From: Petropleomorpha daqingensis | Lineage (GTDB): Bacteria > Actinomycetota > Actinomycetes > Mycobacteriales > Geodermatophilaceae | DNA: 64,000 nucleotides | Assembly (NCBI RefSeq): GCF_013408985.1 | Contig: NZ_JACBZT010000001.1 | Coordinates: 4,667,197 to 4,731,196 of the forward strand | Direction: 5' to 3' | In this document: piece by piece, positions 18,426-19,959 of the stretch | Layout of the letters: every line of letters starts with the position of its first letter | Numbering within the stretch: position 1 is the first letter of the stretch | Translations under genes and position numbers: made by a program | Notes under the pieces: generated by a model | What the model was told of the DNA's origin: nothing | Database searches by the model: none | The model's input: the letters and a program-made list of their open reading frames with translations, nothing else

Positions 18426-19172
18426 ATGGCCGAAGGCAGCAGGAGGAGGCGTTCCTCCGAGCCGGCGGACAGCGCGCGACGGACCCGCCGGGACCGCGAG
18501 GGCGAGCACCGCTGGCCGGCAGCGCTCGCCGTCCTGGTAGCCATCGCCCTGTACGCGCTGCTGCCGGAGAGCCTGCTCTTCGCGCCGCGGCTGCTGATCC
18601 CCGGCCTCGAGCTGGTCCTGCTCGTCACGCTGGTGGTCCACAGCCCGCGCCGGCTCACGAAGCAGACCCGCTGGTCGCGGACGGTGTCACTGGCCCTGGC
18701 GGCGCTGGTCACGCTGACCAACCTGGTCGCGCTGGGCCTGCTGGTGCACGACCTGGTGAAGTCCTCCCCCGGCGGCCGCGAGCTGCTGCTGGCCGCGCTG
18801 CAGGTCTGGACCACCAACGTGATCGCGTTCGCGCTGCTCTACTGGGAGCTCGACCGCGGCGGTCCGGTCGCCCGCATCACCCTGCCCCGCGAGCGGATCC
18901 CGCTCGCCGACTTCCGGTTCACCCAGGACGAGACCAAGGACACCGTGGTCGAGGTCGCGGCCGGGTCGAGCCAGCGGGCCGACTGGATCCCGCTGTTCGT
19001 CGACTACCTCTACCTGTCGACGACGAACTCGAGCGCCTTCAGCCCGACCGACACCATGCCGCTCTCGTCGCGGGCCAAGATCCTCATGGGCGTGGAGGCG
19101 ACCGCGGCGCTGTTCACCTCGCTGCTGGTGATCGCCCGCGCGGTCGGCGCCCTCGGCGGGAGCGGCGGCTGA
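18426..19172 (+). CDS. Conserved actinobacterial membrane protein (possibly DUF1345-like)
   Basis: A 248-residue protein with a very basic N-terminus (about 40 residues), four to five hydrophobic segments, a soluble stretch (about 145-195) and a final helix. The segment YLYLSTTNSSAFSPTDTMPL just before the last helix recalls the conserved end of DUF1345 and some channel-like families, but I do not recognise a function. Its stop abuts the stop of the convergent methyltransferase frame with 1 bp between them. ATG 18426 was preferred because it follows the terminator hairpin. Confidence 0.75.
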   Translation: MAEGSRRRRSSEPADSARRTRRDREGEHRWPAALAVLVAIALYALLPESLLFAPRLLIPGLELVLLVTLVVHSPRRLTKQTRWSRTVSLALAALVTLTNLVALGLLVHDLVKSSPGGRELLLAALQVWTTNVIAFALLYWELDRGGPVARITLPRERIPLADFRFTQDETKDTVVEVAAGSSQRADWIPLFVDYLYLSTTNSSAFSPTDTMPLSSRAKILMGVEATAALFTSLLVIARAVGALGGSGG

Positions 19173-19173
19173 G

Positions 19174-19959
19174 CTACCCGCCCGGCCGGCGGGCCAGGAA
19201 CGGGTAGCCGAAGACGTCGAAGGTCCGGGCGTTGCGCTCGCCGTCGGCGCCACCGAAGGTGTCGACCGGGTCGCCGACGGCGACGTCGGTGAAGCCGGTC
19301 TCGGCCAGGATCATCTGCCAGCCCGCACGGGGCAGCCCCCCGGCTATCTAGCCGGTCCAGAGGTCGATGTCCCGCAGCGCCCCCTCGGGCACCGGGCGGC
19401 CGTTGGCGATGTCGGCGAACTGCAGCCACCCGCCGGGCCGCAGCACGCGGCGGATCTCGGACAGGACGGCACCCTTGTCGGCGCAGAGGTTGAGCACGCC
19501 GTTGGAGATCACGACGTCGGCCCAGCCGTCCTCGACGGGGAGGTCCTCGGCCAGTCCGAGGCGGAACTCGACCTGCGCCAGGCCGAGCTCGGCGGCGGTC
19601 GCCGTCGCCTTGTCCACCATCTCCGGAGTCATGTCCACGCCGACGACCCGGCCCTGCGGCCCGACCTGCCGGGCCGCGAGGAAGGAGTCGAAGCCGGCGC
19701 CGGACCCCACGTCGACCACCCGCTCGCCGGCGGACAGCGCCCGCAGCGCACACGGGTCAGCGACGCCGGCGAACGACTCGACCGCCCGGTCCGGCAGTGC
19801 CGCCACCACGTCGTCGGCGTAGCCGAGCCGTCGGGCCAGATCCCGCCCCGTGGAGAAGTGGAACCGCCGCGACGGGTCAGCCGCCACCTGCCGGTACGTG
19901 TCGCGCACCTGCTCCCGCAGGACGACGGGGTCGACGAGGAGATCGGGCGCGGTCGCCAT
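19174..19959 (-). CDS. ArsM-like SAM-dependent methyltransferase with in-frame UAG, probable UAG-encoded selenoprotein
   Basis: A class I methyltransferase of 261 residues if codon 204 (UAG, 19348-19350) is read through. Motif I is VVDVGSGAGFDSF, then GRVVGVDMTPEMVDKA and a DVVISNGVLNLC segment, as in arsenite methyltransferases. The UAG falls in LWTG-*-IAGGLPRAGW, where ArsM proteins have their catalytic Cys (CmArsM-type WGEC-ISGAL). After the UAG the same frame stays open for 57 codons of family-like sequence (ETGFTDVAV, NARTFDVFGYPFLARR) and stops 1 bp before the neighbour's stop. Downstream RNA can form a SECIS-like hairpin. UAG-directed selenocysteine is reported in Geodermatophilus and Blastococcus. 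The alternatives are a nonsense mutation or sequencing error. ATG 19959 has a GGTGGGAGG site. Confidence 0.82.
19317..19344 (-). promoter_or_regulatory. Putative bacterial SECIS element in the methyltransferase mRNA
   Basis: Counting from the base after UAG, nucleotides 15-18 (GCCC) pair with 24-27 (GGGC) around the 5-nt loop CGUGC. Nucleotides 4-7 pair with 28-31 (one G-U) as a lower stem, leaving a 5' bulge with a U at its top. The loop lies about 19-23 nt after the codon with a G at loop position 2, which fits the published bacterial SECIS model. An alternative GGGG/CCCC pairing competes, so the exact fold is uncertain. Confidence 0.55.

Follow-up and report, generated by a model that had tools for sequence, protein, structure and literature searches.

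A methyltransferase gene of the soil actinobacterium Petropleomorpha daqingensis in all likelihood encodes a selenoprotein, in which an in-frame UAG at codon 204 would be read as selenocysteine (Sec) by way of SelB, a hairpin downstream of the codon and a tRNA-Sec with anticodon CUA. The evidence lies in sequence: the pattern of codons at this position across relatives, the presence of the selenocysteine machinery in the genome, a hairpin that covaries among related genes, and agreement between Sec codon and tRNA anticodon. As we picture it, hairpin-bound SelB would bring selenocysteyl-tRNA-Sec (anticodon CUA) to the ribosome at UAG 204, which would thereby be read as selenocysteine instead of stop, and the terminal UAG would end translation because the hairpin signal is missing there. 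What the lineage inherited was probably a selenoprotein gene coded with UGA; a joint change of codon and tRNA anticodon would then have followed in most of the family Geodermatophilaceae.

Results

A methyltransferase frame with one internal UAG

The gene lies in the stretch of 64,000 nucleotides analysed here (the window), and its features are collected in Table 1. The frame begins with an ATG at 19957-19959 on the minus strand and has UAG 204 as its sole internal stop, within the motif LWTG-*-IAGGLPRAGW (* marks the UAG); 57 family-like codons follow before the terminal UAG, which is 1 base from a convergent ORF ending at 19172, all as in the original prediction for this DNA. The divergent upstream neighbour is an ATP-dependent DNA ligase (790 bits), and the convergent neighbour matched zero Pfam families at E <= 0.001. 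UAG is an ordinary stop in this genome too: by a crude gene call, 12 of the 34 long coding ORFs in the window end in UAG and the other 22 in UGA, which bears out the ordinary use of UAG that had been claimed but not the accompanying count of at least 15 other genes ending in it. The rare isoleucine codon AUA, which accounts for 3 of 296 Ile codons over the genes called in the window, stands directly after the UAG (window 19345-19347) in all six UAG-bearing methyltransferase genes and directly before the UAG in this genome's formate dehydrogenase (L244 1915-1917).

Table 1. Features of the methyltransferase gene, in window coordinates
Feature	Position	Strand	Remark
ArsM-like SAM-dependent methyltransferase gene	19174..19959	-	261 codons + stop, with predicted readthrough at codon 204
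Val66 codon	19762..19764	-	place of ArsM Cys72
Gly154 codon	19498..19500	-	place of ArsM Cys174
Cys159 codon (NLC motif)	19483..19485	-	
UAG codon 204, probably read as selenocysteine	19348..19350	-	from codon comparison in relatives
SECIS-like hairpin	19317..19336	-	nt 15-34 counted from U of UAG
Apical loop CGUGC of hairpin	19325-19329	-	nt 22-26
Terminal UAG	19174..19176	-	presumed stop of same mRNA

Codon 204 is UGA, UAG or Cys across relatives

Pooled over 83 genes (window gene included; duplicates, the copy in genome G071 and seven distant family genes left out), codon 204 is UGA in 72, UAG in six and a Cys codon (TGC) in five. For named genomes, the best 80 of 147 relatives were kept for codon reading, and these comprise 72 UGA, 3 UAG and 5 TGC, the 3 UAG genes being those of the three named family genomes given below. 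Every UAG gene among the 83 belongs to Geodermatophilaceae, where 14 of 112 genomes have a match to the methyltransferase at E <= 1e-40 and six carry a gene that is open except for UAG at codon 204: the window's own genome, three further named genomes (Modestobacter sp. DSM 44400, G105; Blastococcus sp. CT_GayMR16, G031; B. saxobsidens DSM 44509, G008), G024 and G059. The five orthologues are 73-81% identical to the window gene, and the terminal stop of the six is UAG in four and UGA in two. This patchiness, with 6 of the 112 family genomes having a UAG copy, counts against the Sec reading. In G071 a partial copy stands at the end of a contig, with UGA at codon 204 and an apparent assembly frameshift upstream; the seven remaining family matches are more distant, stop-free genes, with a Cys codon at the site in five and Cys visible in the translations of L047 and L048. 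The comparison of homologues proposed with the original prediction thus finds UAG in close relatives and UGA or Cys in wider ones. In Pseudonocardia asaccharolytica the gene occurs twice with UGA, once on each of two contigs (L052 and L056).

In a tree of 52 rows (51 chosen ones plus G071, a selection of relatives for which the bootstrap had not fully settled), the six UAG genes form one clade (support 100/96) nested within UGA genes, and three changes explain the UGA, UAG and Cys states at codon 204. The partial UGA gene of G071 sits in a different clade, so the UAG gene need not derive from the family's UGA copy.

The coding pattern expected beyond the UAG persists in the six UAG genes: third positions take 57% of the nucleotide differences in codons +12 to +54, as against 63% before the UAG, and the synonymous share of differing codons is 0.47 after versus 0.60 before, amino-acid changes being somewhat commoner after. 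Identity among these genes reaches 91% in codons +1 to +11, over the hairpin, compared with 53% before the UAG and 56% after the hairpin.

Fold, cysteine sites and gene neighbours

An AlphaFold2 model (51 sequences, Cys replacing Sec) has a mean pLDDT of 93.9, and among solved structures it is closest to three ArsM chains (Z 25.9, 25.6 and 24.4; rmsd 2.3-2.7 over 214-220 residues); the next match has Z 21.4, and further ArsM chains, at Z 20.1-20.4, are level with other methyltransferases. ArsM binds arsenite through Cys72, Cys174 and Cys224. By a hand count along the alignment with 5eg5, the counterparts of Cys224, Cys174 and position 72 are Sec204, Gly154 and Val66, respectively; the protein has the ArsM fold, and of the tri-cysteine site it keeps the third position alone, as Sec204. 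Gly154 is conserved in 83 of 83 genes. ArsM is a fold label only for this methyltransferase, and the arsenite tri-cysteine site appears to be absent. The UAG had been assigned to the catalytic Cys of arsenite methyltransferases, which holds for the position, aligned with C224, but not for an arsenite substrate, since the two partner cysteines are missing.

Residue 159 is Cys in 67 of the 72 UGA forms and in all six UAG forms; the five Cys204 forms all have Val at 159 and a Cys at 196. Sec204 and Cys159, we infer, act together at the methyl-transfer site. In the Cys204 forms (L100, L102, L112, L114 and L118) it looks as if the redox or ligand pair had moved.

Neighbouring genes were searched by tblastn with ten picked neighbour proteins (hits at E <= 1e-6) in 83 distinct loci other than the window (flanks of <= 3 kb, many shorter; the five Cys forms and G071 included) and in 40 control loci, most with flanks of ~1.5 kb (L008 is a 20-kb stretch, and L017, the window's own gene, was left out). 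An ArsR-rhodanese regulator occurs in 18 of the 83 loci, MBL or MBL-rhodanese in 9, DsrE in 10, MFS in 7 and SBP56 in 2, and none of these five in the 40 controls; L098 was left out of the ArsR-rhodanese and MBL-rhodanese counts because both probes match one stretch there. The UAG loci have the ArsR-rhodanese gene in four of six cases (G024, G105, G031 and G008) and SBP56 in two (G024 and G059), and the window gene has none of the five kinds within 5 kb. Two probes were set aside: the methyltransferase probe matched the genes themselves in 83 of 83 loci, and OsmC, found in 3 of 83 loci but also in 4 controls, counts for nothing as a neighbour signal. OsmC-like genes adjoin Cys-type methyltransferase paralogues of Geodermatophilaceae in four of four loci (L042, L043, L044 and L045).

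Bacterial SBP56 is a methanethiol oxidase according to the available excerpt of PMC5739008. A sulfur or selenium substrate is plausible because a minority of relatives adjoin ArsR-rhodanese, MBL-rhodanese, DsrE or SBP56 genes, and a reduced sulfur or selenium compound plausibly fits these neighbours and the loss of cysteines better than arsenite does. We tentatively propose a distinct single-Sec methyltransferase subfamily, with Sec204 and Cys159 as its active pair (Cys196 and Cys204 in the Cys forms) and, as its substrate, a reduced sulfur or selenium compound of a persulfide or methanethiol pathway; the subfamily would have come through a switch of codon and anticodon across the lineage, from UGA/UCA to UAG/CUA; taken as a whole, this combination is possible but stops short of probable. 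With regard to function only, the protein might instead be a true arsenite methyltransferase with Sec replacing Cys224, as the ArsM chains among its best structural matches, its 209.6 bits to the general NCBIfam ArsM subfamily (PRK11873, under the cut-off of 263) and the ArsM selenoproteins listed in the available excerpt of a 2026 review (PMC13188914) might suggest; we consider this unlikely, given that the equivalents of C72 and C174 are V66 and the invariant G154, and that some related loci adjoin rhodanese, DsrE and SBP56 genes.

A covarying hairpin downstream of the UAG

The SECIS-like stem-loop originally placed just after the UAG is supported by covariation over 78 genes and not by the folding energy of this single sequence. 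A gap-free alignment of 48 nt from codon 204 was made from 78 Sec genes (6 UAG, 72 UGA), leaving out the Cys genes and G071. Across its 75 distinct sequences, 94.5% of cells are paired between stem columns 13-19 and 25-31, and 30 cells are changed on both sides, while none of 500 shuffles reaches this number or the 94.5% pairing and slid stem controls attain at most 46.7% pairing and 13 both-side changes. Two of five covariation measures are weak, namely pairs changed on both sides (matched by 16 of 500 shuffles) and further pair types (483 of 500).

The six UAG genes and nine actinobacterial UGA genes share a variant in which residue 211 is R and not C. Because the homologous stem of this actinobacterial variant contains a G-G mismatch, its loop is placed 2 nt further on, giving a fold with CGUGC (in one case CGUGU) as loop nt 22-26 and a bulged U, a fold that is preferred for nt 15-34 as well as for nt 13-36; the shifted register is almost invariant in the actinobacterial set, without covariation of its own. 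In longer stretches of the methyltransferase mRNA the predicted minimum-energy fold differs. The hairpin's energy is ordinary against dinucleotide shuffles (z 0.06) and is matched by 121 of 500 mononucleotide shuffles. The hairpins of the same genome's formate dehydrogenase (loop GGUCU) and UGSC gene (AGUGU), as well as which none of 500 mononucleotide shuffles folds, occupy the same nt 15-34, both with G23 and U24. In the E. coli hairpin loop, G23 and U24 contact SelB.

Were the UAG mostly to terminate translation, the working product would be a 203-residue protein and readthrough would be incidental or a selenium-dependent regulatory output, a situation compatible with the normal use of UAG as a stop in this genome and with the unremarkable energy of the hairpin; coding conservation past codon 204 and the conserved Sec/Cys position make it very unlikely.

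Selenocysteine machinery and other UAG-containing genes

The 5.38-Mb genome, a single contig (C1), has a tRNA-Sec with anticodon CUA at C1:3440656-3440747 (66.9 bits; Rfam cut-off 47). It is followed by selA (413 bits; cut-off 267.9) and then selB (294.8 bits; cut-off 242.25, with the model match spanning only residues 8-344 of 586), and selD adjoins on the opposite strand (C1:3439057-3439965; 387.6 bits, cut-off 125), so that all four genes whose search had been proposed are present. A second Rfam tRNA-Sec match, at 47.9 bits barely above the cut-off, is a tRNA-Ser by ARAGORN. The same program names the CUA tRNA-Sec (L001 1501-1596) "tRNA-Pyl", a trap for automatic annotation. Two other genes have one in-frame UAG each: a formate dehydrogenase (C1:2140157), at ARI-*-HSS, which we take to be its Sec site, and a UGSC-family gene (C1:2972211-2972639), at *-GSC, the Sec site known from the name of the family.

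That ARAGORN label is what speaks for insertion of pyrrolysine, or of another amino acid, at the UAG by a suppressor tRNA, which is scarcely credible: the tRNA exceeds the Rfam tRNA-Sec cut-off and precedes selA-selB, the pyrrolysyl-tRNA synthetase model scores 24.2 bits, far below its cut-off of 178.15 (matches occur too in 13 of 14 control genomes, one of them above the cut-off), and the site is Cys or UGA in relatives. A dying gene, stopped by a nonsense mutation or sequencing error and with its tail as a remnant, would account for the in-frame stop and the patchy occurrence and is just as hard to credit, with UAG at the same codon in five further genomes, UGA there in 72 relatives and a third-position bias that persists past the UAG. 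The tRNA-Sec(CUA) with selA, selB and selD, the UGA, UAG and Cys codons at position 204 and the coding tail all argue for the selenoprotein read through at UAG that was originally predicted.

Codon and anticodon across Geodermatophilaceae

We found tRNA-Sec in 108 of 112 family genomes (110 genes); the four in which it was not found are 72-82% complete. The anticodon is CUA in 102 of these genes (101 genomes) and UCA in eight. Seven genomes have UCA only (G067, G069, G070, G071, G073, G074 and G075; genus groups g6, g7 and g8), and the eighth UCA gene is a second copy in the CUA genome G059. This second copy is very different and lies near the end of contig C17 (L129, L238, L270-L273), in a stretch of lower GC that is transposase-rich by eye; inspection of C17 for UGA- or UAG-read genes recognised none.

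In nine of 12 chosen genomes, formate dehydrogenase is represented by at least one row with an in-frame stop. This is UAG in seven rows from five CUA genomes (two each in G024 and G008, one each in G031, G059 and G105) and UGA in four rows from four UCA genomes (G071, G073, G074 and G075); of the other UCA genomes, G067 and G069 have stop-free rows, and G070 has no row. The place of the stop was checked in three rows (UAG in G105, UGA in G074 and G075), all with the motif R-x-*-H, the two UGA enzymes being of a different type from the UAG one. By hand count, the UGSC family has 95 matches in the 112 genomes, 72 with exactly one UAG, 23 stop-free and none with UGA, and the matches of the two UCA genomes that have one are stop-free. 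In the genomes looked at, putative Sec codon and tRNA-Sec anticodon agree.

The CUA tRNA-Sec pattern was present in 75 of 75 sampled family genomes versus one of 322 other sampled genomes of the order. The lone case outside the family (L269; G230:C194) is on a 4.8-kb contig of a genome that is 82% complete, and its partial selA is 80% identical to that of the window genome, as against 62-67% for three UCA loci; because the contig is short, the genome incomplete and the selA similar to the window genome's, L269 may be a stray contig.

Related genes elsewhere carry UGA at the same place, which suggests that the family swapped its Sec codon; in most of its members, a joint change of codon and tRNA anticodon would have replaced UGA/UCA by UAG/CUA. 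In the genes compared, UGA goes with UCA genomes and UAG with CUA genomes, so that the sequence of events and the competition with release factors become testable.

Discussion

With high probability for the Sec codon, the protein is a UAG-coded addition to a known kind of selenoprotein, and with it the few UAG-coded selenoproteins known from nature gain a further protein class. UAG-Sec genes set a trap for annotation, in that they resemble truncated genes and their tRNA may be given the label tRNA-Pyl. In a literature search from which subscription papers were mostly absent, no UAG-coded Sec methyltransferase was found among the matches listed.

MddM1, MddM2 and MddH, as presented in the available excerpt of PMC12904073, are sulfide and methanethiol S-methyltransferases, of which MddM1 and MddM2 come from Actinomycetota; MddM1 belongs to the UbiG family, MddM2 and MddH to the UbiE family. 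They too are SAM-dependent methyltransferases and, compared by description, offer a possible functional parallel only; words starting with arsm or selen are absent from the main text of that paper.

Arsenite methyltransferase with the motif UxxG is listed as a selenoprotein in the excerpt of PMC13188914, where UAG comes up three times, for engineering, for ordinary stops and in a reference, and an ArsM selenoprotein is listed without this motif in that of PMC9312934. Like these ArsM selenoproteins (NCBIfam PRK11873), the window protein would have Sec in an ArsM-like protein, its U-I-A-G fitting UxxG; it falls below the model cut-off and, perhaps unlike them, is UAG-coded and lacks equivalents of C72 and C174. 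Its methyltransferase part also aligns over ~216 residues (184.7-215.6 bits) with the NCBIfam double selenoproteins ArsM_AhpD_UU, ArsM_DUF2284_UU and MTase_UXPK_star, but it has neither their second domain nor a second Sec and is far below their cut-offs (510, 575 and 460, respectively).

UAG-directed selenocysteine was reportedly described in Geodermatophilaceae by Mukai et al. in 2016. That it is known in this family, as the original prediction stated for Geodermatophilus and Blastococcus, is documented in the available excerpt of the Secmarker paper (PMC5330540), which gives CUA tRNA-Sec in three genomes of the family and, with reference to earlier work, selenoproteins of the formate dehydrogenase and UGSC kinds as well as an AhpC whose Sec codon is UAG. 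The system described here resembles the published one in its CUA tRNA-Sec, in the UAG of formate dehydrogenase and UGSC genes and in the hairpin after the codon. It differs in that the methyltransferase is not among the proteins named in that excerpt, and in that the boundary between UCA and CUA within the family, where the excerpt covers three genomes, is mapped here over 112, turning a finding from few genomes into a mapped codon switch within one family.
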